DNA of 64,000 nt. Source: Hexactinellida sp. DTS-2022. Lineage: Eukaryota; Porifera; Hexactinellida. Where the stretch lies: assembly GCA_028753945.1 (NCBI GenBank), contig JAPNXP010000007.1, forward strand, positions 744,001-808,000, given 5' to 3'. The position numbers and the translations under genes are program-made. Below, piece after piece: positions 2,566 through 47,324 of the stretch. A model generated the notes under the pieces. It made no database searches. It saw only the letters and a list, made by a program, of their open reading frames with translations, and was not told where the DNA came from. Positions within the stretch are counted from its first letter, which is position 1; each line of letters begins with the position of its first letter.

Positions 2566-5500
2566 ATGAGTGCATTGGCGGTAGATTCCGAAGAAATAGA
2601 TACATTAGTATACAAGCGATCCGATGGGAAGTACAGAGGGTGGAAAACAGAGTTGTTAGTGGAACAGCTGATAACCAAGTTGGAGGAGAGATTCCTACTC
2701 TGTAGCTATTGCGAGGCTTTAATGAGAGATGCCTGTCTCCTTGAGGAGGAAGGAAAACAGGTATTGAGGTGTATTACATGCATTCCTGAGGGTATAACCT
2801 GGCAACCAGCTCTATTGAGTAGAGACTCAGTCAACGAGAAACTTGTTAGTAGCTATTGATAAAATAGTTAATTCTTGTTTGTTGTTTGTTTGTATATTAG
2901 TTAGTTTGTTGTATTATTTTCAATTGATCCTTATGCCTCGTAACACCTCTACAAATGGATCTTAACACCTTGAGGTGATGATGACATCGATAAAAAAATG
3001 TGTTTTTACAATTTTGGCTATTATATACTTCAATGGGTTTGTGTTGGGTGAACATTCAATACGCACATAAAAAATGTTGACTCATCACCTATTATATTCT
3101 AATGAAACCTGAATATCTCTGAAATGAAGTGAGCTAAAAGGAAAATTCCAACTCGCTGGACATCATTACCTTCCGAAACACCTTTCTGAAATGGTTTAAC
3201 ACCTTTATAATGACGATGACTTGATAAAATCTAAAATTACACCTGTGGCAATAGCTTTTTTTGGAGGCACTATCATCCACCAACGACCAAAAGATAGTGC
3301 TTCCAAGGAGCGTGCGACGGCACAGGTGTAATTTTAGATTTATTGTTGTTCATTTGTTTATTTTAACTGTGCCAACTATACCATAGTGGCCCAGTATTGC
3401 TCTTAGTGCTTTGGTTATTAATATTATTGTTCCGTATCGTCTCCACAGAACAGAGCATAATTAACTAAGAACTGAAATTTTCAGGACAGGTGTCTCATGG
3501 GTTACAGATGTGCACCTGAGGTCACGATTTTTTATCACACTTTTTTGAACACATTTTTATACCTGTTTAATGTTAGAAAAGGAACAATAAATAGTGCGCG
3601 ACTATTCAATTTATATGCATTCGATAGATTCAATGTAATTTAATTCTACACCTTGTCACAGTGCACGAATTTTCAAATTCCGCTTCATTTGTGCCACAAT
3701 TGAGTTGCAAATTTCCTTTGTTTACTAACAATTCAGTTCAATTGAAAGTGTTAAATCTAATTCTATTGTTTCAACTCGTTATTATTATATTGATTCAACT
3801 TGTGAGATGGCTTCTATTTTCTATTTGAAAACTAATATTTTACATTCCATAACAACGACAGATTATGTGATTAGATTTACTTCTCCGAGAATATGCTTGC
3901 ACAATGGATACACTGACATATTTAATTCAAATTAGGGTAATTCGCTCTGTGTTTAATTTATTGAGACGGTTCCAATTAGATTATTGGGGTTATCGAGTGC
4001 GCTGAATTCAAATATTATAATGAAATTCAATTTTAAATTAATAATTATTGCAAATAATTGAAATTAATATATTTTGCTATACATAATAATGGTGTTAAAT
4101 TATTAATAATTTGAATAATTATTTATACTAATTTGCTAAATGGCATTAATCTCAGAGATGATACAAGATAGAATCAAACTTCCAATTTATCAATTGATCC
4201 TTATGCCACGTAACACCTCTACAAATGGATCTTGACACCTTGAGGTGATGATGACATCGATAAAAATGTGTTTTACAATTTTGTCTATTATATACTTTCA
4301 ATGGGTTGGTTGGCTATCAATAAACCACCACCAAAAGATAGTGCTGTTGTATGACAGTTTACTACCATGACAGGCTTACTACCTCTATTACTAGTACCAT
4401 GGATGTTCTCTATCCATGACAGATTTACTACCTTACATGACAGAATTACTACCCTTTGATCTTGACTTGAGTATTACTATGCACTTTTAATGGTTTCTTA
4501 CTTTCTTTCTTCTACTTGACTAAATACAAACAGCATGTATTCAATATAGGAAATGGTAATTCATTTATATTATTTATTCTACTCATCGATTTGAGAAAGT
4601 ACACAAATTATAGTCTTGATTCAAGAAATTACATTACAATAATGAATATCTCTGAATATTCAAAGCTTGTGGATTTCTTTCCCATGTGATTTTGCCGAGC
4701 GATTTTTTGAACTCAACAAAATTCGCAAGACGAAATTTTAAAATGCCTGCCTCAGGCTATCAACTTAGTGAAGTTATTGACAGGATACATTGTCGTACTA
4801 CAACTTTTTTTTACACAGAAGGCTTCAGCAATGCAATGATCATTGAGTAGAGGCTGTAGAGCGATACGGTTTTTGACAGCTAATATATTCTCAGATTCCC
4901 AATAGGTTATGTATTGTTAAATCCATTAAAAGGTCGTATCTCCGATGTTAGAATAATTATCTATACCAATCACAATGCTATACATATTAATTAGCCTAGT
5001 AAATAATGAATACGGGGAAGGCGGATGTGGAAATGTCAATTATATAGATGATTGAGCAAGTCAAATTCAATAAAATTTCCTATATCGAATACATGCTGTT
5101 TCTATTTAGTCAAGTAGAAGAAAGAAAGAAAGAAACCATTAAAAGTGCATAGTAATACTCAAGTCATGATCAAAGGGTAGTAATTCTGTCATGTAAGGTA
5201 GTAAATCTGTCATAGATAGAGAACATCCATGGTACTAGTAATAGAGGTAGTAAGCCTGTCATGGTAGTAAAACTGTCATACAACATGCCACCAAAGGAAC
5301 ATGCGTCGGCACAGGCTGCAATTTTTGATTTTTGTTTTTTAATTATTTTTGTTTATTTGTTTTTAAAATGTTTGTTTGATTACTTGCCTGTTCGTTTGTG
5401 TGTTTATGAGTGTATTTATTTAGATCCGGTGTCCGTTGAGTGAGAGAGGGTGCGAGTGGGGAGACACGGTAAGTAGAGCGATACAACACATAGGTGAATG

Positions 5501-6464
5501 CGGTTTCGTTTGTGTGCTGTGTCCGCTTGAGTGTGTCGAGTCGGAGGGAGAGAGAAGTGGCAAAGTGGTGCGAGTGGAGAGGAGACGAGTGGCGGAGCAC
5601 GAGAGAGAGTATTGTCCGTACAGGGTTCTTAAGTGTGAGTTCTGTGACCAATCGGTAATGGCCTGTGAGATGAATCTCCATACGGGAGAGTGCGAGGGTT
5701 TCCTGGTTGTGTGTCCGAATGGCTGCTCGGCAGGAGGGGGGACGGGCAGCAGACAAGCGAGGAGAGGAGACATGCCACTGCACTTAGCGGAGTGCCCTCT
5801 CCAGAGTGTGCAGTGTCCGTATTGGGAGCAGGGATGTGCAGAGGAGATGGAGAGGAGACAGCTGGAGATCCATGAGAGGGAATTTATGCACATTCATTTC
5901 AAACTGGCAATGAAGGAGTTAGGGAAAATAAAACAAATGCAAATTGAATCAAATGACAAAATACAATTAATAGAAAAACAGAATGCGGAATTTAAAGAAA
6001 CTATTTTCACACATGTATTTAGTGGGGGATTGGAATGGAATGTTGACTTTGTTAGACAGAAAATAGGAAAGAAAGAGAATACTTACAGTGAGCCATTCTT
6101 TGTGGGACTGTACATGTGTCAGTGTAAGATTGTGTGGAACATTAATAATACCGACAAAGTAGGTTGTCTTATTTGTATTATGAAAGGGCAGTATGATGAT
6201 AAACTGAAATGGCCCTTCTTGTACAAATATAAATTCGTTTTGCTCAATCAAAATACAAATCAAGAAGATCACATTATGTCTGGTGAGATAACAAATAATC
6301 TACTAGAGACATTCCAAGACTGCTTTCTGAGACCAACAAATATAAGGAATATGGGGTTTGGAAAACTAAAATTTATTACAAATGCTGAAATATTAGGCGA
6401 GAAATATTGCAGAGACGATTCCATTAATCTTCAAATAACTGTAGAACAGATGCCTTCCTTCTAA
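2566..6464 (+). CDS. TRAF-family protein, copy 1 (RING-like, five TRAF fingers, MATH)
   Basis: Join 2566-2844 and 5424-6464, 439 residues. The first ATG of exon A gives MSALAV; the upstream TTG-initiated extension is not needed. Exon B follows TTTAG and continues in phase with IRCPLSERGCEW, a canonical TRAF finger start. Odd points: the 2579 bp intron is a composite. Its 5' part (2845-3345) is the long, hairpin-containing type. At 4191 the start of a second, short-type intron sequence begins, and that one is interrupted by a 941 bp foldback element. So exons A1 and B1 may come from different ancestral units, and splicing between them is unproven. The MATH domain here has CFLRP and ends QMPSF, where most copies have CFQRP and QLPSF. 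Exon A encodes GITWQPALL. Confidence 0.75.
3227..3341. repeat. Intronic hairpin element (TIR AAATCTAAAATTACACCTGTG), intron 1
   Basis: The two ends are a near-perfect 21 bp inverted repeat. A second, inner inverted repeat (ggaggcactatc / gatagtgcttcc) lets the whole ~115 bp fold as a long hairpin. Related copies occupy the introns of TRAF copies 3, 4, 6, 7, 8, 10 and 11. Confidence 0.75.
3369..3575. repeat. Right arm of the inverted repeat paired with 1-206
   Basis: This arm contains CAGGACAGGTGTCTCATGGG, the complement of the motif at about 77-96. It sits in the intron of TRAF copy 1, directly after the hairpin. The stretch after it, 3576-4190, is AT-rich and I see no gene in it. Confidence 0.75.
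4345..5285. mobile_element. 941 bp foldback element inserted in TRAF copy 1 intron
   Basis: The ends TGTTGTATGACAGT and ACTGTCATACAACA extend into inverted arms of about 210 bp (4345-4554 and 5076-5285). The arms contain several 'gacag-nnn-tactacc' sub-repeats. The flanking intron sequence (ctatcaataaaccacc / ccaccaaaggaacatg) is continuous in copies 2, 5, 9 and 12, which shows this is an insertion. The centre has no open frame of note. Confidence 0.8.
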
Positions 6465-6732: not shown

Positions 6733-8397
6733 ATGAGTGCATTGGCGGTAGATTCCGAAGAAATAGATACATTAGTATACAAGCGATCCGATGGGAAGTA
6801 CAGAGGGTGGAAAACAGAGTTGTTAGTGGAACAGCTGATAACCAAATTGGAGGAGAGATTCCTACTCTGCAGCTATTGCGAGGCTTTAATGAGAGATGCC
6901 TGTCTCCTTGAAGAGGAAGGAAAACAGGTATTGAGGTGTATTACATGCATTCCTGATGGCGTAACCTGGCAACCAGCTCTAATGAGTAGAGACTCCATCA
7001 ACGAGAAATTTGTTAGTAGCTATTGATATTTTGATAAAATAGTTAATTCTTGTTTGTTTGTTTGTTTGTTTATATAGTGATCAATTGATCCTTATGCCAC
7101 GTAACACATCTAAAAATGGGTCTTGACACCTTGAAGTGATGATGACTTCGCTAAAAAATGTGTTTTTACAATTTTGTCTATAATATACTTTCAATGGGTT
7201 GGTTGGCTATCAATAAAGCACCAAAGGAACATGCGTCGGCACAGGCTGCAATTTTGGATTTTTCTTTTTTTAATTTTTTTGTTTATTTGTTTTAAAAATG
7301 TTTGTTTGATTACTTGCCTGTTCGTTTGTGTGTTTATGAGTGTGTTTATTTAGATCCGGTGTCCGTTGAGTGAGAGAGGGTGCGAGTGGGGAGACACGGT
7401 AAGTAGAGCGATACAACACATAAGTGAATGCGGTTTCGTTTGTGTGCTGTGTCCGCTTGAGTGTGTCGAGTCGGAGGGAGAGAGAAGTGGCAAAGTGGTG
7501 CGAGTGGAGAGGAGACGAGTGGCGGAGCACGAGAGGGAGTATTGTCCGCACAGGGTTCTTAAGTGTGAGTTCTGTGACCGATCGGTAATGGCCTGTGAGA
7601 TGAATCTCCATATGGGAGAGTGCGAGGGTTTCCTAGTTGTGTGTCCGAATGGCTGCTCGGCAGCAGGGGGGACGGGCAGCAGACAAGCGAGGAGAGGAGA
7701 CATGCCACTGCACTTAGCGGAGTGCCCTCTCCAGAGTGTGCAGTGTCCGTATTGGGAGCAGGGATGTGCAGAGGAGATGGAGAGGAGACAGCTGGAGATC
7801 CATGAGAGGGAATTTATGCACATTCATTTCAAACTGGCAATGAAGGAGTTAGGGAAAATAAAACAATTAGAACAAATGCAAATTCAATCAAATTTCAGAA
7901 TACAATTTTTAGAAAAACAGAATACGGAATTGAAAGAAACAATTTTCACACACGTATTTACTGGTAGATTGGAATGGAAGATTGACTTTGTTAGACAGAA
8001 AATAGTAATGAAAGAGGATACTTCCAGTGAGCCATTCTTTATAGGACTGTACATCTGTCAGTGTGAGATTCAGTGGAATATTACTGGCAACGTAGGTTGT
8101 TTTATTTGTATTATGAAAGGGCAGTATGATGATAAGCTGAAATGGCCTTTTTTGTGCAGATATAAATTCATTCTACTCAATCAAAATACAAATCAAGAAG
8201 ATTATATTAAGTCTGGTGAGATAACAAATAATTATGTAGAGAAATTACTTCACTGCTTTCAGAGACCAACCAATAAGAGAAATATTGGGTTTGGAAATCC
8301 TTCATTTATCACAAATGCTGAAATATTGAGCGAGAAATATTGCAGACTTGATTCGATTAATTTTCAAATAACTGTAGAACAGTTGCCTTCCTTCTAA
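6733..8397 (+). CDS. TRAF-family protein, copy 2 (reference copy for the array)
   Basis: Join 6733-7011 and 7354-8397, 440 residues, 342 bp intron (short type). Exon A has Cys 46, 49, 57, 69 and 72. These resemble half of a TRAF RING but lack the CxH loop, so E3 activity is doubtful. Exon B supplies five TRAF-type fingers: C96/C103/H115/C119, C126/C130/H152/C157, C164/C167/H179/C183, C190/C194/H213/C217 and C224/C231/H243 with a late His. A coiled coil (about 255-290, with QLEQMQIQSN) follows, then a MATH/TRAF-C domain with SEPFF, MKGQYDDKLKWPF, FQRP and DSINFQITVEQ. In known TRAFs this domain trimerises and binds receptor tails; these would be cytoplasmic signalling adaptors. Unlike its siblings it has RLDSIN for RDDSIN. 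The partner is unknown. Confidence 0.85.
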
Positions 8398-10268: not shown

Positions 10269-12407
10269 ATGAGTGCATTGGCGGTAGACTCCGAAGAAAT
10301 AGATACATTAGTATACAAGCGATCAGATGGTAAGTGCAGAGGGTGGAAAACAGAGTTGTTAGTGGAACAGCTGATAAGCAAATTGGAGGAGAGATTCCTA
10401 CTCTGCAGCTATTGCGAGGCTTTAATGAGAGATGCCTGTCTCCTTGAGGAGGAAGGAAAACATGTATTGAGGTGTATTACATGCATTCCTGAGGGCGTAA
10501 CCTGGCAACCAGCTCTAATGAGTAGAGACTCAATCAACGAGAAGCTTGTTAGTAGTTATTGTTAAAATAGTTAATTCTTGTTTGTTTGTTTATATTCTTA
10601 TCAATTGATCCTTATGCCACGTAACACCTCTACAAATGGATCTTGACACCTTGAGCCTGAGGTGATGATGACATCGTCATAAAATGTGTTTTACAATTTT
10701 GTCTATTCTATAAAAGCGCTTACAAACTAAGCAAAAAAATTTGTAGATCGTCTATCAGGCTTGTCAAAAGTTCCCCAATCATTAACTCAGTTCAGGTCTT
10801 TAACAAAAATTTCCTCGGGTCACTCAAAACTCAGATCAATTCAGGTCACGACCTGAACTTTTGACAAGCCTGCCGTCTATAAATTCTATAGACCAAAGCC
10901 CTGCTGTCTATGGGTAATGCTTATTTAGTAAGAAAACCTGATCTATTTCTAGACGGTCTACATAACAAGTTATTTCTATTTTCAATGGGTTGGTTGGTAT
11001 TGGGTGAACACAGAACACGCACATAATAAACGCTGACTCATAAGTCATAACCTATTATATTCTACTGAAACTTGAATATCTCTGAAATGAAGTGAGCTAA
11101 AACAAACTTCTAACTCGCTAAACATCATTACCGTTCGAAACACTTTCTGAAATGGTTTAACACCTTTATAATGATGATGACTTGAGAGAAAAATCTAAAA
11201 TTACACCTGTGGTAATAGCTTTTCTTTGGAGGCACTATCATTCACCAACCACCAAAAGATAGTGCTTCCAAGGAGCAGGCGACAGCACAGGTGTAATTTT
11301 AGATTTTTTGTTGTTGCTTTTCGTTGTTGATTATTTGTTGTTTATTTATTTATTTATTTATGAGTGTTTATTTAGATCCGGTGTCCATTGAGTGAGAGAG
11401 GGTGCGAGTGGGGGGACACGGTAAGTAGAGCGATACAACACATAAGTGAATGCGGTTTCGTTTGTGTGCTGTGTCCGCTTGAGTGTGTCGAGTCGGAGGG
11501 AGAGAGAAGTGGCAAAGTGGTGCGAGTGGAGAGGAGACGAGTGGCGGAGCACGAGAGGGAGTATTGTCCGCACAGGGTTCTTAAGTGTGAGTTCTGTGAC
11601 CGATCGGTAGTGGCCTGTGAGATGAATCTCCATATGGGAGAGTGCGAGGGTTTCCTAGTTGTGTGTCCGAATGGCTGCTCGGCAGCAGGGGGGACGGGCA
11701 GCAGACAAGCGAGGAGAGGAGACATGCCACTGCACTTAGCGGAGTGCCCTCTCCAGAGTGTGCAGTGTCCGTATTGGGAGCAGGGATGTGCAGAGGAGAT
11801 GGAGAGGAGACAGCTGGAGATCCATGAGAGGGAATTTATGCACATTCATTTCAAACTGGCAATGAAGGAGTTAAAGCAAATGCAAATTGAATCAAATGTC
11901 AGAATACAATTATTGGAAAAACAGAATGCGGAATTGAAAGACACAATTTTCACACATGTATTTACTGGTAGATTGGATTGGAAGGTTGACTTAGTTAAAC
12001 AGAAAATAGAAAAGAAAGAGGATACTCACAGTGAGCCATTCTTTGTAGGACTGTACATGTGTCAGTGTGGGATTGAGTGGAACTATAATAATTCCGTCAA
12101 TGTAGGTTGTTATATTTGTATTATGAAAGGGCAGTATGATGACAAACTGAAATGGCCTTTCTTGTGCAGATATAAATTCGTTCTCCTCAATCGGAAAAGA
12201 AATCAAGAAAATCACACTTGGTCTGATGAGGTAACAAATAATTATTTAGAGAAATTCCCTGACTGCTTTCAGAGACCAACAGATATAAGGAATGTTGGGG
12301 TTGGAAATTCTTCATTTATCACGAATGCTGAAATATTGAGCGATAATTATTGCAGAGACGATTCCATTAATCTTCAAATAACTATAGAACAGTTGCCTTC
12401 CTTCTAA
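10269..12407 (+). CDS. TRAF-family protein, copy 3
   Basis: Join 10269-10547 and 11376-12407, 436 residues. The intron is 828 bp, long type, and carries both the hairpin element and a separate hAT MITE. Exon A reads GKCRGW and GKHVLRC where others have GKYRGW and GKQVLRC. The coiled coil is shortened (KELKQMQIESN). Its coiled coil and MATH start (NVRIQLLEKQNAELKDTIFT, then RLDWKVDLVKQ) are the same as in copy 7, so exons B3 and B7 are sister sequences, although their A exons differ. The MATH strand reads SVNVGCYICIMKGQYDD. No disruption seen. Confidence 0.85.
10756..10872. mobile_element. hAT-like MITE in TRAF copy 3 intron
   Basis: The ends CAGGCTTGTCAAAAGTTC and GAACTTTTGACAAGCCTG are perfect inverted repeats, flanked by tcgtctat / ccgtctat, a near-perfect 8 bp target duplication. 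The interior contains 'caggtcacgacctga', another palindrome. Confidence 0.8.
11201..11306. repeat. Intronic hairpin element, TRAF copy 3
   Basis: Same family as 3227-3341: AAATCTAAAATTACACCTGTG at the left, CACAGGTGTAATTTTAGATTT at the right, and the inner ggaggcactatc/gatagtgcttcc pair. Both arms are intact. Confidence 0.75.
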
Positions 12408-12840: not shown

Positions 12841-12995
12841 GAGAATTTACTTATCTACCGATCATCGGCGTTTGTATTAAATAACCTGGCTAGTTTCTAC
12901 CGATGGTGTTTTTTTTATATACATAAAAAAACAATCGGTAGAAAGTAGCGAGGTGTTTTAATACAAACGCCGATGATCGGTGGATAAGTAAACTC
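12841..12995. mobile_element. 155 bp palindromic MITE
   Basis: The arm ACTTATCTACCGATCATCGG is repeated inverted at the right end (CCGATGATCGGTGGATAAGT). 'Tttaaat' flanks both sides, where other copies of this spacer read straight through 'cctatttaaatgattatg'. It is inserted in the MULE-derived spacer before TRAF copy 4. Confidence 0.75.
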
Positions 12996-15112: not shown

Positions 15113-17664
15113 ATGAGTGCATTGGCGGTAGATTCCGAAGAAATAGATACATTAGTATACAAGCGATCAGATGGGAAGTACAGAGGGTGGAAAACAGAGT
15201 TGTTAGTGGAACAGCTGATAAGCAAATTGGAGGAGAGATTCCTACTCTGCAGCTATTGCGAGGCTTTAATGAGAGATGCCTGTCTCCTTGAGGAGGAAGG
15301 AAAACAGGTATTGAGGTGTATTACATGCATTCCTGAGGGTTTAACCTGGCAACCAGCTCTATTGAGTAGAGACTCCATCAACGAGAAACTTGTTAGTAGT
15401 TATTGTTAAAATAGTTAATTATTGTTTGTTTATTAGTTTATTTGTTTATATTATTATCAATTGATCCTTGTGCCACGTACACCTCTACCAGGGAATGAAA
15501 GGTCACGAACGAACTTATTGAACTTGAACTGAACGAACTGAACGCAGGGCTTTTAAGCAATTCACGGTGAACGAACTGAACGAACGCCAACGGTTTCCAA
15601 ACGGCAATTGAACGAACTGAACGAACTGAACTGAACGAATTGAACGAATTGAACGGATTGAACGAACTGAACTGAACGAACTAAACTGAATAAAGATAAA
15701 TTAGAAATATTGATCCATTAAATATAATAGGTGACTGCAAAAGTGCTAATTCCGGACATCTCTAGTGGACTCCTGTCTGTTAGCTTAGATTCTAGCTTAA
15801 CCTGAACTTCGATAACAGCTTGGAGGATCGAACAGTCTATCATAAACAGAATAGTTCGACCCACTCACTGTACACTGAACGAACTGAATTGAACGGATTG
15901 AACGAACTGAACGAACTAAACGAACTGAACGAACTGAACGAACTTAATTGAACGGATTGAACGGATTGAACGAAAGCGGGTCAGCCCATGAACGAACTGA
16001 ACGAACGCTGGAGGAGCTGAAGTTAGGAGGTGAACTTGAACGAACTGAACGTGCGTCGATTTGAGATGAACTGAATTGCATCAATTCTGTCCGTTCGTGA
16101 ACCTTTCATGCCCTGACCTCTACACATGGGTCTTGACACCTTGAGGTAATGATGACATCGTAAAAAATTTGTTTTACAATTTGTCTATTATATATTCTCA
16201 ATGTTTTGGTTGGTGTTGGGTGAACACCCAACACGCACATAAAAAATGCTGACTCATCACCAATTATATTCTACTGAAACTTGAATATCTCTGAAATGAA
16301 GTGAGCTAAATGGAAACTTCTAACTCACTAAACGTCATTACCTTCCGAAACACCTTTCTGAAATGGTTTAACACCTTTATAATGATGACGACTTTACAAA
16401 AAATCTAAAATTACACCTGTGGCATAGCTTTTTTGGAGGCTCTATCATCCACCAACCACCAATAGTGCTTCCAAGGAGCATGCGACGGCACAGGTGTGAT
16501 TTTATATATTTTTTGTTTGTTTGTTTGTTGTTGATTATTTGTTGTTTATTAGGTTTTTTTGTTTATTAGTTTGTTGTTTGTTTGTTTATTTATTTACCGT
16601 ATTTGTTTATTTAGATCCGGTGTCCGTTGAGTGAGAGAGGGTGCGAATGGGGAGACACGGTGAGTAGAGCGATACAACACATAAGTGAATGCGGTTTCGT
16701 TTGTGTGCTGTGTCCGCTTGCGTGTGTCGAGTCGGAGGGAGAGAGAAGTGGCAAAGTGGTGCGAGTGGAGAGGAGACGAGTGGCGGAGCACGAGAGGGAG
16801 TATTGTCCGCACAGGGTTCTTAAGTGTGAGTTCTGTGACCGATCGGTAGTGGCCTGTGAGATGAATCTCCATATGGGAGAGTGCGAGGGTTTCCTGGTTG
16901 TGTGTCCGAATGGCTGCGAGGCAGCAGTGGGGACGGGCAGCAGACAAGCGAGGAGAGGAGACATGCCACTGCACTTAGCGGAGTGCCCTCTCCAGAGTGT
17001 GCAGTGTCCGTATTGGGAGCAGGGATGTGGAGAGGAGATGGAGAGGAGACAGCTGGAGATCCATGAGAGGGAATTTATGTACATTCATTTCAAACTAGCA
17101 ATGAAGGTGTTAGGGAAAGTAAAGCAATTAGAACAAATGCAAATTGAATCCAATGACAGAATGCAATTATTAGAAAAACAGAATGCAAAATTGATACAAA
17201 CTATTTCCACACATCTATTTACCGGTAGATTGGAATGGAAGGTTGACTTAGTTAGACAGAAAATAGAAAATAAAGAGTATACTCACAGTGAGCCATTCTT
17301 TGTAGGACTGTACATGTGTCAGTGTAAGATTGAGTGGAACCATAAAAATACCGGTAAAGTAGGTTGTTTTATTTTTATTATGAAGGGGCAATATGATGAT
17401 AAACTGAAATGGCCTTTCTTGTACAAATATAAACTGGTTCTACTCAATCAAAATACAAATCAAGAAGATCACACTTGGTCTGATGAGGTATCAAATTATT
17501 ATCTAGGGAAATTACTTCACTGCTTTCTGAGACCAACAAATACGAGAAATAGTGGATTTGGAAAGCGTTCATTTATTACAAATGCTGAAATATTGAGCGA
17601 GAAATATTGCAGAGACGATTCCATTAATCTTCAAATAACTATAGAACAGTTGCCTTCCTTCTAA
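15113..17664 (+). CDS. TRAF-family protein, copy 4
   Basis: Join 15113-15391 and 16615-17664, 442 residues, one of the longest copies. The 1223 bp intron is enlarged by a 627 bp repeat-rich hAT-like insertion. Exon A encodes GLTWQPALL. Exon B shows several private changes in the otherwise uniform finger region: CPLACVES for CPLECVES, AAVGTGS, and CGEEMER for CAEEMER. The coiled coil is KVLGKVKQLEQMQIESNDRM, and the MATH region has KEYTHSEPFFVGLYMCQCKI and KVGCFIFIMKGQYDD. All finger Cys/His positions are kept, so it is probably functional. Confidence 0.85.
15489..16115. mobile_element. hAT-like element filled with GAACGAACT tandem repeats, TSD ACCTCTAC
   Basis: The ends CAGGGAATGAAAGGTCACGAAC and GTTCGTGAACCTTTCATGCCCTG (quoted here in part) are inverted repeats. 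The 8 bp sequence ACCTCTAC occurs on each side, and other TRAF introns read through this site once. The interior is a minisatellite of 'ctgaacgaa' and 'ggattgaa' variants in three blocks (15505-15680, 15885-15975, 15990-16055). Confidence 0.85.
16401..16510. repeat. Intronic hairpin element, TRAF copy 4 (right arm decayed)
   Basis: The left arm AAATCTAAAATTACACCTGTG is intact. The right arm reads CACAGGTGTGATTTTATAT, so the outer base pairs are lost. Confidence 0.65.
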
Positions 17665-18985: not shown

Positions 18986-20654
18986 ATGAGTGCATTGGCG
19001 GTAGATTCCGAAGAAATAGATACATTAGTGTACAAGCGATCAGATGGGAAGTACAGAGGGGGAAAACAGAGTTGTTAGAGGAACAGCTGGTAAGCAAATT
19101 GGAGGAGAGATTCCTACTCTGCAGCTATTGCGAGGCTTTAATGAGAGATGCCTGTCTCCTTGAGGAGGAAGGAAAACAGGTATTGAGGTGTATTACATGC
19201 ATTCCTGAGGGCGTAACCTGGCAACCAGCTCTAATGAGTAGAGACTCCATCAACGAGAAACTTGTTAGTAGCTATTGTTAAAATAGTTAATTCTTGTTTG
19301 TTTGTTTGTTTGTTTATTAGTTAGTTTGTTTATATTATTTTCAATTGATCCTTATCCACGTAACACCTCTACAAATGGATCTTGAGGCCTTGAGGTGATG
19401 ATGACATCGCTAAAAAATGTGTTTTTTACAATTTTGTCTATTATATACTTTCAATGGGTTGGTTGGCTATTAATAAACCACCAAAGGAACATGCGTCGGC
19501 ACAGGCTGCAATTTTGGATTTTTGTTTTTTAATTTTTTTTGTTTATTTGTTTAAAAAATGTTTGTTTGATTACTTGCTTGTTCGTTTGTGTGTTTATGTG
19601 TGTGTTTATTTAGATCCGGTGTCCGTTGAGTGAGAGAGGGTGCGAGTGGGGAGACACGGTAAGTAGAGCGATACAACACATAAGTGAATGCGGTTTCGTT
19701 TGTGTGCTGTGTCCGCTTGAGTGTGTCGAGTCGGAGGGAGAGAGAAGTGCCAAAGTGGTGCGAGTGGAGAGGAGACGAGTGGCGGAGCACGAGAGGGAGT
19801 ATTGTCCGCACAGGGTTCTTAGGTGTGAGTTCTGTGACCGATCGGTAATGGCCTGTGAGATGAATCTCCATATGGGAGAGTGCGAGGGTTTCCTGATTGT
19901 GTGTCCGAATGGCTGCGAGGCAGCAGGGGGGACGGGCAGCAGACAAGCGAGGAGAGGAGACATGCCACTGCACTTAGCGGAGTGCCCTCTCCAGAGTGTG
20001 CAGTGTCCGTATTGGGAGCAGGGATGTGCAGAGGAGATGGAGAGGAGACAGCTGGAGATCCATGAGAGGGAATTTATGCACATTCATTTCAAACTGGCAA
20101 TGAAGGAGTTAAAGGAAATAAAACAAATGCAAATTGAATCAAATGACAAAATACAATTAATAGAAAAACAGAATGTGGAATTTAAAGAGAGTATTTCCAC
20201 ACACATATTTACTGGGGGATTGGAATGGAAGGTTGACTTTGTTAGACAGAAAATAGTAAAGAAAAAGAATACTTACAGTGATCCATTCTTTGTAGGACTG
20301 TATATGTGTCAGTGCAACATTGAGTGGAACCGTAATAATACCGGCAAAGTAGGTTGTTATATTTTTATTATGAAAGGGCAGTATGATGACAAACTGAAAT
20401 GGCCTTTCTTGTACAGATATAAATTTGTTCTACTCAATCAAAATACAAATCAAGAAGATTACATTCGGTCTGATGAGGTAACAAATGATGATCTAGAGGA
20501 ATCAGTTGACTGCTTTCAGAGACCAACCAATATGAGGAATGTTGGGTTTGGAAATCCTTCATTTATCACAAATGCTGAAATATTAAGCGAGAAATATTGC
20601 AGAGACGATTCCATTAATCTTCAAATAACTGTAGAACAGTTGCCTTCCTTCTAA
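18986..20654 (+). pseudogene. TRAF-family gene copy 5, frameshift in exon A
   Basis: Exon A 18986-19263 is 278 bp, one less than in all other copies. A single T is missing at about 19061 (AGAGGGGGAAAAC where siblings have AGAGGGTGGAAAAC), which shifts the frame after GKYRG and stops soon after. Exon B 19614-20654 is fully open (346 codons) with all five fingers and a complete MATH domain. It shares KELKEIKQMQIESNDKIQLI and NVEFKESISTH with copy 11. The 350 bp intron is the short type. A start within exon A after the shift would give only the Cys module. This is either a recent pseudogene or an assembly error next to a G run. Confidence 0.7.
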
Positions 20655-30221: not shown

Positions 30222-32182
30222 ATGAGTGCATTGGCGGTAGATTCCGAAGAAATAGATACATTAGTATACAAGCGATCAGATGGGAAGTACAGAGGGTGGA
30301 AAACAGAGTTGTTAGTGGAACAGCTGATAAGCAAATTGGAGGAGAGATTCCTACTCTGCAGCTATTGCGAGGCTTTAATGAGAGATGCCTGTCTCCTTGA
30401 GGAGGAAGGAAAACAGGTATTGAGGTGTATTACATGCATTCCTGAGGGCGTAACCTGGCAACCAGCTCTAATGAGTAGAGACTCCATCAACGAGAAATTT
30501 GTTAGTAGTTATTGTTAAAATAGTTAATTCTTGTTTGTCTGTTTGTTTGCTTATTAGTTAGTTTGTTTATTAATTGATCCTTGTGCCACATACACCTCTA
30601 CACATGGCTCTTGACACCTTGAGGTAATGATCACATCGTGAAAAATTTGTTTACAATTTTGTCTATTATATATTTTCAATGTTTTGGTTGGTGTTGGGTG
30701 AACACCAAACACGCACATAAAAAATGTTGACTCATCACCAATTATATTATACTGAAACTTGAATATCTCTGAAATGAAGTGAGCTAAATGGAAACTTCTA
30801 ACTAGCTAAACGTCATTACCGTCCGAAACACCATTCTGAAATGGTTTAACACCTTTATGATGATGATGACTTGAGAGAAAAAATCTAAAATTACACCTGT
30901 GGCAATAGCTTTTTTGGAGGCACTATCATCCACCAACCACCAATAGTGCTTCCAAGGAGCAGGAGACGATACAGGTGTAATTTTATATTTTTTGTTGTTG
31001 TTCATTGTTGATTATTTGTTGTTTGTTTGTTTGTTTAATATTTTGTTTTTTTTTGTTGTTTTTTGTTTTTTGCTTATTAGTTTGTTGTTTGTTTAATTAT
31101 TAATTTATTTGTTTATTTATTTGTTTATTTAGATCCGGTGTCCATTGAGTGAGAGAGGGTGCGAGTGGGGAGACACGGTAAGTAGAGCGATACAACACAT
31201 AAGTGAATGCGGTTTCGTTTGTGTGCTGTGTCCGCTTGAGTGTGTCGAGTCGGAGGGAGAGAGAAGTGGCAAAGTGGTGCGAGTGGAGAGGAGACGAGTG
31301 GCGGAGCACGAGAGGGAGTATTGTCCTCACAGGGTTCTTAAGTGTGAGTTCTGTGACCGATCGGTAATGGCCTGTGAGATGAATCTCCATATGGGAGAGT
31401 GCGAGGGTTTCCTAGTTGTGTGTCCGAATAGCTGCTCGGCCGAAGGGGGGACGGGCAGCAGACAAGCGAGGAGAGGAGACATGCCACTGCACTTAGCGGA
31501 GTGCCCTCTCCAGAGTGTGCAGTGTCCGTATTGGGAGCAGGGATGTGCAGAGGAGATGGAGAGGAGACAGCTGGAGATCCATGAGAGGGAATTTATGCAC
31601 ATTCATTTCAAACTGGCAATGAAGGAGTTAAAGGAAATAAAGGAAATGAAACAAATGCAAATTGAATCAAATTTCAGAATACAATTATTGGAAAAACACA
31701 ATGCAAAATTGATGCAAACTATTTCCACACATCTTTTTACTGGTAGATTGGGATGGAAGGTTGAAATAGTTAGACAGAAGATAGTAAAGAGAAAGAATAC
31801 TTACAGTGAGCCATTCTTTGTAGGACTGTACATGTGTCAGTGTAGCATTGAGTGGAACCGTACGAATAACGGCAAAGTAGGTTGTTTTATTTTTATTATG
31901 AAAGGGCAGTATGATGATAAACTGAAATGGCCCTTTTTGTGCAGATATAAATTTGTTCTACTCAATCGGAATAGAAATCAAGAAGATCATACTTGGTCTG
32001 ATGAGACAACAATTGATTATCTAGAGGAATTCCCTGACTGCTTTCAGAGACCAACAAATATAAGGAATGATGGGTTTGGACATCCTTCATTTTTCACAAA
32101 TGCTGAAATATTAAGCGAGAAATATTGCAGAGACGATTCCATTAATCTTCAAATAACTGTAGAACAGTTGCCTTCCTTCTAA
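30222..32182 (+). CDS. TRAF-family protein, copy 8
   Basis: Join 30222-30500 and 31133-32182, 442 residues, 632 bp long-type intron. Private features: CPNSCSAEGGTGS in finger 4, where siblings have CPNGC; a longer coiled coil (KELKEIKEMKQMQIESN); LGWKVEIVRQKIV for LEWKVDLVRQ; and NAEILSEKYC preceded by PSFFTNAE. Finger ligands are preserved. Its 5' flank is the 1.6 kb element. Confidence 0.85.
30881..30990. repeat. Intronic hairpin element, TRAF copy 8
   Basis: AAATCTAAAATTACACCTGTG at the left; ACAGGTGTAATTTTATATTT at the right, slightly decayed. Confidence 0.65.
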
Positions 32183-33034: not shown

Positions 33035-34690
33035 ATGAGTGCATTGGCGGTAGATTCCGAAGAAATAGATACATTAGTATACAAGCGATCAGATGGGAAG
33101 TACAGAGGGTGGAAAACAGAGTTGTTAGTGGAACAGCTGATAACCAAATTGGAGGAGAGATTCCTACTCTGTAGCTATTGCGAGGCTTTAATGAGAGATG
33201 CTTGTCTCCTTGAGGAGGAAGGAAAACAGGTATTGAGGTGTATTACATGCATTCCTGAGGGCGTAACCTGGCAACCAGCTCTAATGAGTAGAGACTCAGT
33301 CAACGAGAAATTTGTTAGTAGCTATTGTTAAAATAGTTAATTCTTGTTTGTTTGTTTGTTTGTTTGTTATATTATTTTCAATTGATCCTTATGCCACGCA
33401 ACACCTCTACAAATGGATCTTGAGACCTTGAGGTGATGATGACATCGCTAAAAAATGTGTTTTTACAATTTTGTCTATAATATACTTTCAATGGGTTGGT
33501 TGGCTATCAATAAAGCACCAAAGGAACATGCGTCGGCACAGGCTGCAATTTTGGATTTTTGTTTTTTAATTTTTTTGTTTATTCGTTTTAAAAATGTTTG
33601 TTTGATTACTTGCTTGTTCGTTTGTGTGTTTATTTATTTGTTTATTTAGATCCGGTGTCCGTTGAGTGAGAGAGGGTGCGAGTGGGGAGATACGGTAAGT
33701 AGAGCGATACAACACATAAGTGAATGCGGTTTCGTTTGTGTGCTGTGTCCGCTTGAGTGTGTCGAGTCGGAGGGAGAGAGAAGTGGCAAAGTGGTGCGAG
33801 TGGAGAGGAGACGAGTGGCGGAGCACGAGAGGGAGTATTGTCCGCACAGGGTTCTTAAGTGTGAGTTCTGTGACCAATCGGTAATGGCCTGTGAGATGAA
33901 TCTCCATATGGGAGAGTGCGAGGGTTTCCTGGTTGTGTGTCCGAATGGCTGCGAGGCAGCAGGGGGGACGGGCAGCAGACAAGCGAGGAGAGGAGACATG
34001 CCACTGCACTTAGCGGAGTGCCCTCTCCAGAGTGTGCAGTGTCCGTATTGGGAGCAGGGATGTGCAGAGGAGATGGAGAGGAGACAGCTGGAGATCCATG
34101 AGAGGGAATTTATGCACATTCATTTCAAACTGGCAATGAAGGAGTTAGGGAAAATAAAACAAATGCAAATTGAATCAAATGACAGAATACAATTATTGGA
34201 AAAACAGGATGCAAAATTGATGCAAACTATTTCTACACATGTATTTACAGGTAGATTGGATTGGAAGATTGACTTAGTTAAACAGAAAATAGAAAAGAAA
34301 GAGAATACTTACAGTGAGCCATTCTTTGTATGACTGTACATGTGTCAGTGTAAGTTTGAGTGGAACCGTAATAATACCGGCAAAGTAGGTTGTTTTATTC
34401 GTATTATGAAAGGGCAGTATGATGATAAACTAAAATGGCCTTTCTTGTACAGATTTAAATTTGTTCTACTCAATCAAAATACAAATCAAGAAGATTACAT
34501 TCAGTCTGGTGAGGTAACAAATGATTTTCTAGAGAAATCAGTTAACCACTTTCAGAGACCAACAAATGTAAGGAATAGTGGGTTTGGAAATTCTTCATTT
34601 ATTACGATTGCTGAAATATTAAGCGATGAATATTGCAGAGACGATTCCATTAATCTTCAAATAACTGTAGAACAGTTGCCTTCCTTCTAA
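33035..34690 (+). pseudogene. TRAF-family gene copy 9, nonsense codon in MATH domain
   Basis: Exon A 33035-33313 and exon B 33650-34690, with a 336 bp short-type intron. At 34331-34333 the sequence is TGA where all other copies have GGA (FFVGLYMCQC), a single G to T change. The frame is otherwise open to the normal end. As it stands the product would be about 320 residues: RING-like module, five fingers and coiled coil, but almost no MATH domain. A truncated protein of this kind could still bind zinc-finger partners and act as a dominant-negative, but a young pseudogene is simpler. Confidence 0.7.
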
Positions 34691-36314: not shown

Positions 36315-38212
36315 ATGAGTGCATTGGCGGTAGATTCCGAAGAAATAGATACATTAGTATACAAGCGATCAGATGGGAAGTACAGAGGGTGGAAAACAGA
36401 GTTGTTAGTGGAACAGCTGATAACCAAATTGGAGGAGAGATTCCTACTCTGCAGCTATTGCGAGGCTTTAATGAGAGATGCCTGTCTCCTTGAGGAGGAA
36501 GGAAAACAGGTATTGAGGTGTGTTACATGCATTCCTGAGGGCGTAACCTGGCAACCAGCTCTAATGAGTAGAGACTCAATCAACGAGAAACTTGTTAGTA
36601 GTTATTGTTAAAATAGTTAATTCTTGTTTGTTTGTTTATTTGTTTGTATTCTTATCAATTGGTCCTTATGCCACGTAACACCTCTACAAATGGGTATTGA
36701 CACCTTGAGGTGATGATGACATCGTCATAAAATGTGTTTTTACAATTTTGTCTTATATATTTTCAATGGGTTGTTGTTGGGTGAACTCATCACCTATTAT
36801 ATTCTACTGAAACTTGAATGTCTCTGAAATGAAGTGAGCGAAAAGGAAACTTCTAACTCACTAAACGTCGATACCCTCCGAAACACCTTTCTGAATTGGT
36901 TTAACACCTTTATATTGAAGATTACTTGTGAAAAAATCTAAAATTACCCTTGTGGTAATAGCTTTTTTGGAGGCACTATCATACATCAATCACCAAAGAT
37001 AGTGCTTCCAAGGAGCCTGCGACGGCACAGGTGTAATTTTAGATTTTTTGATGATCGTTTGTTGTTTGTTTGATTATTAGTTATTTTGTTTGTTGTTGTT
37101 TGTTTATTCGTTTATTTTATTTTTTGTTTATTTGTTTGTGTGTTTATGAGTGTGTTTATTTAGATCCGGTGTCCATTGAGTGAGAGAGGGTGCGAGTGGG
37201 GGACACGGTGAGTAGAGCGATACAACACATAAGTGAATGCGGTTTCGTTTGTGTGCTGTGTCCGCTTGAGTGTGTCGAGTCGGAGGGAGAGAGAAGTGGC
37301 AAAGTGGTGCGAGTGGAGAGGAGACGAGTGGCGGAGCACGAGAGGGAGTATTGTCCGCACAGGGTTCTTAAGTGTGAGTTCTGTGACCGATCGGTAATGG
37401 CCTGTGAGATGAATCTCCATATGGGAGAGTGCGAGGATTTCCTAGTTGTGTGTCCGAATGGCTGCTCGGCAGGAGGGGGGACGGGCAGCAGACAAGCGAG
37501 GAGAGGAGACATGCCACTGCACTTAGCGGAGTGCCCTCTCCAGAGTGTGCAGTGTCCGTATTGGGAGCAGGGATGTGCAGAGGAGATGGAGAGGAGACAG
37601 CTGGAGATCCATGAGAGGGAATTTATGTACATTCATTTCAAACTGGCAATGAAGGAGTTAGGGAAATTAAAGCAATTGGAACAAATGCAAATTGAATCAA
37701 ATTTTAGAATACAATTATTGGAAAAACAGAATGCGGAATTAAAAGAGAGTATTTCTACACATGTATTAACTGGTAGATTGGAATGGAAGGTTGACTTAGT
37801 TAGACAGAAAATAGAAAAGAAAAAGAATACTTTCAGTGAGCCATTCTTTGTAGGACTGTACATGTGCCAGTGTGAGATTAATTGGAACCGTAATAATACC
37901 GGCAAAGTGGGTTGTTATATTTGTATTATGAAAGGGCAGTATGATGATAAACTGAAATGGCCTTTCTTGTACAGATATAAATTAGTTCTACTCAATCAAA
38001 AAACAAATCAAGAAGATTATACTTGGTCTGATGAGATAACAAATAATTATCTAGAGAATTCAGTTGACTGCTTTCAGAGACCAACAAATAAGAGAAATAA
38101 AGGGTTTGGATATTCATCTTATATCACAAATGCTGAAATATTAAGCAATAAATATTGCAGAGACGATTCCATTAATCTTCAAATAACTGTAGAACAGTTG
38201 CCTTCCTTCTAA
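36315..38212 (+). pseudogene. TRAF-family gene copy 10, frameshift at start of exon B
   Basis: Exon A 36315-36593 is intact. Exon B 37164-38212 has one G too few in the run at about 37198-37202 (GAGTGGGGGACACGG where siblings have six G or GGGGAG). This breaks the frame between CEW and DTVSRAIQ in finger 1. After that the frame is open to the normal stop and encodes four and a half fingers, coiled coil KELGKLKQLEQMQIESNFRI and a full MATH domain (GFGYSSYITNAEILSNKYC). Finger 4 has CEDFLVVCP instead of CEGFLVVCP. Because the change is in a homopolymer, a sequencing error is a real possibility and the gene may be functional. Confidence 0.65.
36934..37046. repeat. Intronic hairpin element, TRAF copy 10
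   Basis: The left arm reads AAATCTAAAATTACCCTTGTG (two changes); the right arm CACAGGTGTAATTTTAGATTT is intact. Confidence 0.65.
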
Positions 38213-39983: not shown

Positions 39984-41864
39984 ATGAGTGCATTGGCGGT
40001 AGATTCCGAAGAAATAGATACATTAGTATACAAGCGATCCGATGGGAAGTACAGAGGGTGGAAAACAGAGTTGTTAGTGGAACAGCTGATAACCAAATTG
40101 GAGGAGAGATTCCTACTCTGTAGCTATTGCGAGGCTTTAATGAGAGATGCCTGTCTCCTTGAGGAGGAAGGAAAACAGGTATTGAGGTGTATTACATGCA
40201 TTCCTGAGAACGTAACCTGGCAACCAGCTCGAATGAGTAGAGACTCAATCAACGAGAAACTTGTTAGTCGTTATTGTTAAAATAGTAAATTCTTGTTTGT
40301 TTGTTTATTAGTTAGCCTTTGTTTATATTCTTATCAATTGATCCTTGTGCCACGTACACCTCTACACATGGGTCTTGACACCTTGAGGTGATGATGACAT
40401 CGTCAAAAAATTTGTTTTACCATTATGTCTATTATATATTTTCAATGGGTTGGTTGGTGTTAGGTTACTCAACACCCACATAAAAAATGCTGACTCATCA
40501 CCTATTATATTCTATTGAAACTTGAATATCTCTGAAATGAAGTGAGCTAAAAGAAACTTCTAACTCGCTAAACGTCATTACCGTTCGAAACACCTTTCTG
40601 AATTGGCTTAACACCTTTATAATGATGATGACTTGACAAAAAATCTAGAATTACACCTGTGGCAACAGCATGTTATTTGGAGGCACTATCGATCCACCAA
40701 CCACCATAAGATGGTGCTTCCAAGGAGCATGCGACGGCACAGGTGTTATTTTAGATTTTTTGTTAGTTTTTAGTTTTTTGTTTTGTTTGTTTATATATTT
40801 ATTTATTTGTTTTGTTTATTTAGATCCGGTGTCCGTTGAGTGAGAGAGGGTGCGAGTGGGGAGACACGGTAAGTAGAGCGATACAACACATAAGTGAATG
40901 CGGTTTCGTTTGTGTGCTGTGTCCGCTTGAGTGTGTCGAGTCGGAGGGAGAGAGAAGTGGCAAAGTGGTGCGAGTGGAGAGGAGACGAGTGGCGGAGCAC
41001 GAGAGGGAGTATTGTCCGCACAGGGTTCTTAAGTGTGAGTTCTGTGACCAATCGGTAATGGCCTGTGAGATGAATCTCCATATGGGAGAGTGCGAGGGTT
41101 TCCTAGTTGTGTGTCCGAATGGCTGCGAGGCAGCAGGGGGGACGGGCAGCAGACAAGCGAGGAGAGGAGACATGCCACTGCACTTAGCGGAGTGCCCTCT
41201 CCAGAGTGTGCAGTGTCCGTATTGGGAGCAGGGATGTGCGGAGGAGATGGAGAGGAGACAGCTGGAGATCCATGAGAGGGAATTTATGCACATTCATTTC
41301 AAACTGGCAATGAAGGAGTTAAAGGAAATAAAACAAATGCAAATTGAATCAAATGACAAAATACAATTAATAGAAAAACAGAATGTGGAATTTAAAGAGA
41401 GTATTTCCACACACGTATTTACTGGGGGATTGGAATGGAAGGTTGACTTTGTTAGACAGAAAATATTAAAGAAAAAGAATACTTACAGTGAGCCATTCTT
41501 TGTAGGCCTGTACATGTGTCAGTGTAACATTGAGTGGAACCGTAATAGTACTGGCAAAGTGGGTTGTTATATTTGTATTATGAAAGGGCAGTATGATGAC
41601 AAACTGAAATGGCCTTTCTTGTACAGATATAAATTTGTTCTACTCAATCAAAATACAAATCAAGAAGATTACATTCGGTCTGATGAGGTAACAAATGATG
41701 ATCTAGAGGAATTTCTTGACTGCTTTCAGAGACCAAAAGATATATGGAATGATGGGTTTGGATATTCTTCATTTATCACAAGTGCTAAAATATTAAGCGA
41801 TAATTATTGCAGAGACGATTCCATTAATCTTCAAATAACTGTGGAACAGTTGCCTTCCTTCTAA
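39984..41864 (+). CDS. TRAF-family protein, copy 11
   Basis: Join 39984-40262 and 40824-41864, 439 residues, 561 bp long-type intron. Exon A is the ENVTWQPAR type otherwise found only in copy 7. Exon B is the NVEFKESISTH type otherwise found only in copy 5. It is a clear mosaic of the two lineages. MATH differences: STGKVGCYICIMKG, RPKDIWNDGFGYSSFITSAK where siblings have RPTNIRN...TNAE. No disruption. Confidence 0.85.
40641..40758. repeat. Intronic hairpin element, TRAF copy 11
   Basis: AAATCTAGAATTACACCTGTG at the left (one change); CACAGGTGTTATTTTAGATTT at the right; the inner stem is imperfect. Confidence 0.65.
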
Positions 41865-45688: not shown

Positions 45689-47324
45689 ATGAGTGCATTG
45701 GCGGTAGATTCCGAAGAAATAGATACATTAGTATACAAGCGATCAGATGGGAAGTTCAGAGGGTGGAAAACAGAGTTGTTAGTGGAACAGCTGATAACCA
45801 AATTGGAGGAGAGATTCCTACTCTGCAGCTATTGCGAGGCTTTAATGAGAGATGCCTGTCTCCTTGAGGAGGAAGGAAAACAGGTATTGAGGTGTATTAC
45901 ATGCATTCCTGAGGGCGTAACCTGGCAACCAGCTCTAATGAGTAGAGACTCAGTCAATGAGAAACTTGTTAGTAGTTATTGTTAAAATAGTTAATTCTTG
46001 TTTGTTGTATTATTTTCACTTGCTACTTATGCCACGTAACACCTCTATAAATGGATCTTGAGACCTTGAGGTGGTGATGACATCGCTAAAAAATGCGTTT
46101 TTACAATTTTGTCTATTATATATTTCAATGGGTTGGCTGGCTATCAATAAACCACCAAAGGAACATGCGTCGGCACAGGCTGCAATTTTGGATTTTTGTT
46201 TTTTAATTTTTTTGTTTTTTTGTTTTTAAAATGTTTGTTTGATTACTTGCTTGTTTGTTTGTGTGTTTATGAGTGTGTTTATTTAGATCCGGTGTCCGTT
46301 GAGTGAGAGAGGGTGCGAGTGGGGCGACACGGTAAGTAGAGCGATACAACACATGAGTGAATGCGGTTTCGTTTGTGTGCTGTGTCCGCTTGAGTGTGTC
46401 GAGTCGGAGGGAGAGAGAAGTGGCAAAGTGGTGCGAGTGGAGAGGAGACGAGTGGCGGAGCACGAGAGGGAGTATTGTCCGCACAGGGTTCTTAGGTGTG
46501 AGTTCTGTGACCGATCGGTAATGGCCTGTGAGATGAATCTCCATACGGGAGAGTGCGAGGGTTTCCTGGTTGTGTGTCCGAATGGCTGCTCGGCAGCAGG
46601 GGGGACGGGCAGCAGACAAGCGAGGAGAGGAGACATGCCACTGCACTTAGCGGAGTGCCCTCTCCAGAGTGTGCAGTGTCCGTATTGGGAGCAGGGATGT
46701 GCGGAGGAGATGGAGAGGAGACAGCTGGAGATCCATGAGAGGGAATTTATGCACATTCATTTCAAACTGGCAATGAAGGAGTTAGGGAAAATAAAACAAT
46801 TCGAACAAATGCTAATTGAATCAAATGACAGAATAAAATTATTGGAAAAACAGAATGCGGAATTGAAAGAATGTGTATTTACTGGGGGATTGGATTGGAA
46901 GATTGACTTAATTAGACAGAAAATAGAAAAGAAAGGGAATACTTTCAGTGAGCCATTCTTTGTAGGACTGTACATGTGTCAGTGCTACATTGTGTGGAAC
47001 CGTAATAATGCCGGCAACGTAGGTTGTTTTATTTGTATTATGAAAGGGCAATATGATGATAAACTGAAATGGCCTTTCTTGTACAAAATTAAATTTGTTC
47101 TATTCATTCAGAATACAAATCAAGAAGATTATACGCAGTCTGGTGGCACAACAAATCATTGTCTAGAGAAATTTCCTCACTGCTTTCAGAGACCAACAAA
47201 TATATGTAATGATGGGTTTGGAATTCCTTCATTTATCACAAATGCTGAATTATTAAGCGAGAAATATTGCAGAGACGATTCCATTAATCTTCAAATAACT
47301 GTGGAACAGTTGCCTTCCTTCTAA
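45689..47324 (+). CDS. TRAF-family protein, copy 12 (last of the array)
   Basis: Join 45689-45967 and 46287-47324, 438 residues, 319 bp short-type intron. Exon A has GKFRGWK for GKYRGWK. The coiled-coil/MATH junction lost residues (AELKECVFTGGLDWKIDLIR, where siblings have ETIFTHVFTGGLEW). The MATH core is the most divergent of the array: NNAGNVGCFICIMKG, FLYKIKFVLFIQNTNQEDYT, SGGTTNHCLEKFPHCF, NICNDGFGIPSFITNAELLS. All zinc-finger ligands are conserved. No further TRAF copy follows; VPS53 starts 450 bp downstream. Confidence 0.85.

Follow-up and report, generated by a model that had tools for sequence, protein, structure and literature searches.

Twelve tandem genes for TRAF-like immune adaptors of the animal type, all in one orientation on the + strand, lie in a 64,000-nucleotide stretch of the genome of the sponge Hexactinellida sp. 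DTS-2022 (the window; bases 744001-808000 of contig C16 in an assembly of 112.4 Mb and 18 contigs). The array probably evolves in two modes, with a front half converted between copies and a MATH domain diversified at its peptide groove, which may together form a small intracellular recognition repertoire. In the alignment of the copies, silent sites differ far less in exon A and over the first ~490 bp of exon B, which hold the zinc fingers and the first turns of the coiled coil, than in introns, 3' flanks, and the MATH half. This likeness is best explained by short-tract gene conversion between copies. Codon models show the MATH half to be under diversifying selection, and the codons under selection are over-represented where the domain aligns with the TRAF2 groove for receptor peptides.

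Gene content and intron structure point to an animal genome. Sequence and splice signals suggest the exon model used here. Exon A (279 bp; 278 bp in copy 5) has a CxxC...CxxC motif, a short zinc module at the RING position. Exon B (1032-1050 bp, one copy frameshifted) encodes TRAF-type zinc fingers, a coiled coil, and a MATH domain. The intron between them is 319-2579 bp long. Exon A starts were taken from the sequence, donors from the sequence and the 12-copy alignment, and ends from the alignment. The features are listed by window coordinates, with the evidence in parentheses.

2566..2844, +, copy 1 exon A, CxxC...CxxC zinc module at the RING position (start from sequence, end by alignment)
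5424..5903, +, copy 1 finger half, homogenised (alignment)
5904..6464, +, copy 1 coiled coil and MATH, diversified (alignment, codon models)
6733..7011, +, copy 2 exon A, 0 Pfam families (sequence, Pfam search)
7354..7833, +, copy 2 finger half, zf-TRAF (alignment, Pfam search)
7834..8397, +, copy 2 coiled coil and MATH (alignment, Pfam, codon models)
10269..10547, +, copy 3 exon A (start from sequence, end by alignment)
11376..11855, +, copy 3 finger half (alignment)
11856..12407, +, copy 3 coiled coil and MATH (alignment, codon models)
15113..15391, +, copy 4 exon A (start from sequence, end by alignment)
16615..17094, +, copy 4 finger half (alignment)
17095..17664, +, copy 4 coiled coil and MATH (alignment, codon models)
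18986..19263, +, copy 5 exon A, frameshifted by a 1-nt deletion (alignment)
19614..20093, +, copy 5 finger half (alignment)
20094..20654, +, copy 5 coiled coil and MATH (alignment, codon models)
24003..24281, +, copy 6 exon A (start from sequence, end by alignment)
24850..25329, +, copy 6 finger half (alignment)
25330..25887, +, copy 6 coiled coil and MATH (alignment, codon models)
26173..26451, +, copy 7 exon A (start from sequence, end by alignment)
27323..27802, +, copy 7 finger half (alignment)
27803..28354, +, copy 7 coiled coil and MATH (alignment, codon models)
30222..30500, +, copy 8 exon A (start from sequence, end by alignment)
31133..31612, +, copy 8 finger half (alignment)
31613..32182, +, copy 8 coiled coil and MATH (alignment, codon models)
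33035..33313, +, copy 9 exon A (start from sequence, end by alignment)
33650..34129, +, copy 9 finger half (alignment)
34130..34690, +, copy 9 coiled coil and MATH, in-frame TGA (open frames, alignment)
36315..36593, +, copy 10 exon A (start from sequence, end by alignment)
37164..37642, +, copy 10 finger half, 1-nt deletion in a G run near the start (open frames, alignment)
37643..38212, +, copy 10 coiled coil and MATH (alignment, codon models)
39984..40262, +, copy 11 exon A (start from sequence, end by alignment)
40824..41303, +, copy 11 finger half, the copy modelled structurally (alignment, structure model)
41304..41864, +, copy 11 coiled coil and MATH, model matching solved TRAF domains (structure model, Foldseek)
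45689..45967, +, copy 12 exon A (start from sequence, end by alignment)
46287..46766, +, copy 12 finger half (alignment)
46767..47324, +, copy 12 coiled coil and MATH (alignment, codon models)

The anchor catgagagggaatttatg occurs exactly 12 times in the window, always on the + strand, and still 12 times with up to three mismatches (chance expectation 0.04). Across the 112.4 Mb assembly no further exact match to it was reported. Searching the genome with exon B gave at least 119 exon-level matches (E≤0.001; these are stretches and not genes), which makes the array one branch within a large expansion of TRAF-like genes.

The split of the twelve copies into two halves, first described from the sequence alone, holds; the copies are not all intact. 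The deletion in copy 5 shifts the exon A frame and the stop in copy 9 is a GGA-to-TGA change in the MATH half. The copy 10 deletion is possibly an assembly error because the G run is a homopolymer.

Exon B of copy 2 matches zf-TRAF in the fingers (PF02176, E 8.2e-12) and TRAF-C/MATH behind them (PF21355, E 4.1e-17; PF22486, E 7.2e-14), and BTB is absent among its four Pfam matches. No RING, B-box, or B30.2 is among the Pfam matches of copy 2, and its exon A keeps only the CxxC...CxxC motif of the RING that stands at the N-terminus in the TRAF family. With no recognisable RING we name the genes TRAF-like and claim no E3 activity; TRAF1 also has no RING, according to passages of PMC7215387. The AlphaFold2 model of copy 11 has a mean predicted local distance difference test (pLDDT) score of 88.9, and the best 50 of its 496 Foldseek matches are all TRAF-domain chains (E 3.3e-12 to 3.1e-9). 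A helix predicted in this model at residues 155-199, before MATH, takes the position of the TRAF-N coiled coil. The structure alignment comprised 14 paralogues and 11 of the 12 window copies (copy 9 excluded, copy 10 from its downstream open frame).

Contrast between the two halves of exon B

The sequence-only reading described a uniform, GC-rich finger half and a variable, AT-rich MATH half. The 12 anchors, the change points, the GC content, and the identity all confirm this. Variable columns make up 6.5% of the 12-copy alignment ahead of a change point at column 493 (support 489-499) and 37.9% beyond that point, with a log-likelihood gain of 80.0 and a permutation maximum of 11.0 (n=300). 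GC content is 0.57 up to column 457 (441-461) and 0.33 from there on (gain 30.3 vs a permutation maximum of 6.8). At third codon positions, variability changes at codon 166 and GC content (GC3) at codon 165. Within exon B, mean pairwise identity per 40 bp is 0.93-1.00 up to bp 480 and 0.80-0.95 thereafter. The divergence switch corresponds to residue 165 of copy 11, within the coiled-coil helix and not at the start of MATH, about 12 codons past the last finger helix of the model (residues 144-153).

Mean pairwise synonymous divergence (dS) is 0.058 in exon A (without copy 5), 0.033 in the fingers, 0.193 in the coiled coil, and 0.155 in MATH. For the coiled coil and MATH combined it is 0.161, about fivefold the finger value. 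Finger dS is lower than this combined dS in all 66 pairs and exon A dS is lower in 65 of 66, with a correlation of 0.00 between finger and MATH dS over pairs. In the intron, divergence is 0.177 over the first 180 bp, or 0.119 when copy 4 with its different intron is set aside, and 0.329 over the last 120 bp. The first 200 bp of the 3' flank diverge by 0.217; leaving out copy 5, in which other sequence replaces the flank after ~110 bp, gives 0.155. Finger dS is lower than the divergence of these first 180 intron bp in all 66 pairs and lower than that of the 3' flank in 63 of them. The MATH half diverges near the background of the intron and 3' flank, and exon A and the fingers are therefore the anomalously alike part.

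Probable gene conversion and base composition of the front half

Purifying selection alone could keep the fingers alike, with MATH relaxed and no conversion, as the fingers bind zinc and their nonsynonymous divergence (dN) is low (0.014). However, within the array finger dS is about fivefold under MATH dS, whereas comparison with paralogues finds the silent sites of the fingers close to saturation. At fourfold sites, the nine intact copies differ from the nearest paralogue trio by 0.81 in the fingers and 0.54-0.57 in MATH, and from a fourth locus by 0.73 and 0.51. A finger difference of 0.81 argues that there is no long-term constraint on silent sites. Low finger dS is also not intrinsic, since fingers are not less divergent in two other clusters. 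In one other tandem cluster, finger dS is 0.074 compared with 0.071 for the C-terminal part (fingers lower in three of six pairs); in a cluster on contig C4 it is 0.135-0.173 compared with 0.126 for the C-terminal half. We regard purifying selection alone as very improbable. As there is no standing silent-site constraint, short-tract gene conversion best explains the finger uniformity.

Antisense overlap as the cause of silent-site conservation was rejected; the copies are near-identical, and three paralogues have 2-12 antisense stops per frame. An antisense open reading frame (ORF) of 157-158 aa over the finger half is open in 11 of the 12 copies (window 5420-5893, - strand, in copy 1); copy 8 has a stop.

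Unequal crossing-over with recent duplication, without conversion, might also have made the fingers alike. The copies share a single orientation and common flanking blocks, and copies 1, 2, 5, 9, and 12 are alike in the last 120 bp of the intron (0.043-0.089). Against this, the alike block, taken over all pairs together, is bounded on both sides by divergent intron and MATH and so needs short tracts with two ends. Crossing-over and duplication alone are quite unlikely.

Recombination among finger sites was examined with purpose-written implementations, as were the codon site models below. Among informative finger sites, 58% of pairs are incompatible. Simulations without recombination, 500 under each of three rate models, were kept if they had at least 8 informative sites; of these, 0 of 294, 0 of 303, and 2 of 238 matched this value. 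Other results lessen the case for exchange. In the unfiltered simulations, single runs matched the observed incompatibility (maxima 0.667 and 1.0). The pairwise homoplasy index (PHI) gave no spatial signal in the fingers (p=0.82), where 11 informative sites are too few, and a GENECONV-like test found one of 66 pairs globally significant (p=0.034). The finger difference from the trio may be partly inflated by a GC shift. Exchange within MATH has moderate support (PHI p=0.0035; best pair, global p 0.076), with the MATH incompatibility of 0.54 inside the range of simulations with strong rate variation (up to 0.547). Silent-site likeness above that of the flanks and reticulate sites, as in concerted evolution, are both present; the PHI and GENECONV-like results for the fingers are weak. 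The earlier proposal that gene exchange homogenises exon A and the fingers is thus supported by the dS contrast and the paralogue comparison, less so by formal tests on finger sites.

That proposal included a GC bias of conversion. Between fingers and MATH, GC3 falls from 0.60 to 0.33 and GC content at fourfold sites (GC4) from 0.62 to 0.27. The coincidence of the third-position switches in GC3 and divergence (codons 165 and 166) is the best evidence linking GC to conversion. Finger GC4 is also above the ~0.41 of the paralogue trio and the equilibrium of 0.36 implied by singletons. However, GC4 is likewise higher in the front half than in the back half at 15 of 17 other loci (one tie, one reverse with 7 back-half sites). 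These loci are not independent, and their front 480 bp do not always coincide exactly with the fingers. L034, the front part of L025's gene, was excluded. For two of the 15 loci, L024 and L031, the match list shows nothing else within 100 kb. GC4 is only 0.38 in the homogenised exon A, and exon A and MATH of the array are likewise GC-richer than those of the trio (0.38 vs 0.20-0.24 and 0.27 vs 0.13-0.19). Finger singletons include 11 GC-to-AT and 5 AT-to-GC changes, with no excess toward GC. It is unlikely that GC-biased conversion made the finger half GC-rich. The GC-richness of the fingers is mainly a composition common to the family and not a demonstrated product of conversion.

Diversifying selection and the aligned peptide groove

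Whether MATH is simply free to diverge or is diversified by selection had been left undecided; the site models favor diversifying selection, concentrated at the aligned groove. For the coiled coil and MATH, model M2a is preferred over M1a with twice the log-likelihood difference (2dL) at 81.7, placing 17.3% of codons at a dN/dS (omega) of 4.2 and 65% at 0.29. The 2dL is 99.0 on a star tree, 55.8 with the nine intact copies, 52.8 for MATH alone, and 13.8 and 35.1 for its two halves separately. The M7/M8 comparison gives 102.7. In 36 null simulations, from zero recombination to codon-wise shuffling, 2dL reached at most 8.28. Under M0, omega is 0.86 for the MATH half and 0.46 for the fingers. A tree-free count found five MATH-half codons with at least 6 residues. 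Neutral simulations gave a mean of 0.6 (maximum 4) at slightly lower silent diversity and 1.6 (maximum 5) at slightly higher (n=100 each).

We aligned MATH to TRAF3 with TRAF2 numbering, taking ten receptor-peptide positions from passages of PMC6125299. This alignment is less sure between F447 and S453, where the array has an insertion. Codons with a posterior above 0.5 occupy 7 of the 10 groove positions and 20 of 139 elsewhere in MATH (p=0.00026); above 0.9, 5 of 10 and 12 of 139 (p=0.0019). They align with TRAF2 R393 (posterior 1.00), Y395 (0.93), F410 (0.74), S453 (1.00), S454 (0.98), S455 (0.50), and C469 (0.98). The codons at L432, F447, and F456 are not selected. Contacts of TRAF2 with TRADD, taken from passages of PMC7215387, show no enrichment (3 of 10, p=0.26). 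Several hot-spot residues are conserved among TRAF1/2/3/5 according to passages of PMC6125299. The PxQ/E-E specificity residues of these proteins, R393, Y395, and S453-S455, are not conserved in any copy; the conserved R of R393 is not present, and the aligned position is Y in copies 6 and 12 and S in copy 8.

A MATH half that is only relaxed or decaying, without positive selection, is the alternative to diversifying selection, and some observations side with it. Overall dN/dS in MATH is 0.79, below 1. Three of the 12 copies (5, 9, and 10) have a frameshift or stop, leaving nine without a detected defect. Codons with at least 3, 4, or 5 residues (41, 16, and 7) show no excess over neutral simulations, as expected when most codons are constrained. 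Against relaxation, M2a is strongly preferred in the nine intact copies too, and 65% of codons are held at omega 0.29. The codons with at least 6 residues and the groove enrichment are further points against it. Omega is thus not far below 1 throughout MATH, with a codon class near 4, and relaxation or decay alone is unlikely.

From a shared signalling half and a variable half, a recognition repertoire may fairly be inferred. The sequence-only interpretation is partly supported, in its homogenised front but not in the GC bias of conversion. In the mechanism we propose, short conversion tracts would keep exon A and the fingers interchangeable as a constant output half. Each copy's groove would offer a different surface to a different short peptide ligand, and every copy would feed a common output through the fingers and the N-terminal zinc module. 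Candidate ligands are foreign peptides or the tails of the host's own receptors or adaptors. Tracts entering MATH may be rare because divergence blocks pairing, selection removes them, or both. We tentatively suggest an intracellular repertoire built from TRAF adaptors, with a concerted output half and many diversified grooves, in which the adaptor itself may be the variable receptor.

Related clusters, known systems, and window neighbors

The nearest paralogue trio (L021-L023; contig C16, 4.33 and 4.92 Mb) has two members 2.3 kb apart in opposite orientation and a third ~0.58 Mb away. Its finger dS is 0.029 compared with 0.120 for MATH, and lower in all three pairs; for the neighboring pair, 0.032 and 0.043 differ little. 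MATH in the trio is conserved (dN 0.035, dS 0.120) despite the homogenised fingers. This is a point against our interpretation of the array, since a repertoire does not follow from homogenisation alone.

Two clusters, on contigs C4 and C6, repeat the tendency to a faster C-terminal part (omega 1.25 and 1.03 vs 0.35-0.49 for fingers), to which the trio is an exception. In the C4 cluster (five copies; two of seven excluded), the C-terminal part has dN 0.158, dS 0.126, and omega 1.25, with dN above dS in 9 of 10 pairs. The M2a test gave p=0.006, and the M0 omega of 1.13 is not different from 1 (2dL 0.27). This part has no Pfam MATH match, and it is colinear with a MATH profile at a probability of 1.1% (E 0.047), so we call it only tentatively MATH-like. 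In the C6 cluster (G000:C6:1068850-1082400, L080-L084; five stretches, one a different gene type), finger omega is 0.35 and dS 0.102 (three copies). Part of the C-terminal region (four copies) has omega 1.03 and dS 0.226, with dN above dS in three of six pairs.

The C4 cluster (G000:C4:5628700-5650600, L069-L079) consists of seven tandem TRAF-like genes with a CxxC module and zinc fingers, one copy having an in-frame stop. Most copies have a hydrophobic stretch, read by eye, that resembles a membrane span (KVWVIIELVLAGIAVVLAAIIGISV in copy 1), and a stalk of repeats varying in number (NSRETNSNLQKIQ) between the fingers and the fast-evolving C-terminal domain. The variable end would be extracellular if the topology is N-in/C-out. 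Structure prediction for the protein with the hydrophobic span gave a mean pLDDT of 36.9, too low for interpretation. A partial exon A match outside the array (L051, G000:C4:740384-740590) is 68% identical, with a stop and a GC4 of 0.62; no exon B match lies nearby among those listed.

TRAF proteins are usually viewed as fixed relays from receptors to NF-kB or MAPK signalling. In the array, much as in antiviral TRIM proteins, diversification seems to have fallen on the relay itself, at its peptide groove. If true, a signalling adaptor that is normally an invariant relay has been turned into a variable receptor. The array separates concerted evolution and diversifying selection inside one exon, and its nine unbroken copies are natural replicates, with one output half and different grooves, for testing the specificity of an adaptor repertoire.

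The closest known likenesses are the finTRIM and MATH-BTB expansions. MATH evolves adaptively in the MATH-BTB/BATH substrate adaptors of nematodes and plants, where, as in the array, this domain is the part in which a ubiquitin-linked adaptor diversifies its recognition; these proteins have BTB instead of TRAF fingers. The vertebrate TRAF1/2/3/5 proteins share zf-TRAF, coiled coil, and TRAF-C/MATH in the same order, whereas several of their conserved hot-spot residues, given in passages of PMC6125299, are the variable ones of the array. In passages of PMC2657112, the finTRIM genes of teleost fish show positive selection in the C-terminal ligand-binding domain (M2a, 15.6% of sites). Like the array (17.3% of codons), they are numerous lineage-specific duplicates with selected sites on a recognition surface. 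Unlike it, they encode RING/B-box/B30.2 proteins and not TRAF/MATH; only the evolutionary pattern is alike. Those passages of PMC2657112 describe no homogenised N-terminal half and report a few selected sites there too, and "gene conversion" has 0 occurrences in the main text of that paper. Passages of PMC6109357 describe a planarian TRAF expansion with 121 MATH domains, mostly TRAF-like and proposed for tests of immunity, which resembles the array in its lineage-specific growth of MATH-domain proteins. Analyses of selection, groove, or conversion were not found in those passages. The array shows a finTRIM-type evolutionary pattern on TRAF-like genes, with a concerted front half added. No description of such a TRAF-gene pattern was found among the titles and abstract openings surveyed, which cover few subscription papers.

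Several other elements lie in the window. The long intron of copy 1 contains a foldback element (4358-5271) with 209-nt arms that are 95% complementary, and similar pairs occur at 44536-45253, 42329-42753, and 12842-12996. Between copies 9 and 10 is an open frame of 131 aa (35511-35906, +) with no Pfam match, transposase-like by eye only. An RFWD3-like gene for an E3 ligase with RING and WD40 adjoins the array (48764-50467, +; PF23419, E 1.2e-84). Beyond it are an ORF with a 3CxxC zinc-ribbon domain (51125-51886, -; PF17180, E 2.7e-12) and a minisatellite with a period of 46 and 5.2 copies (55595-55849).

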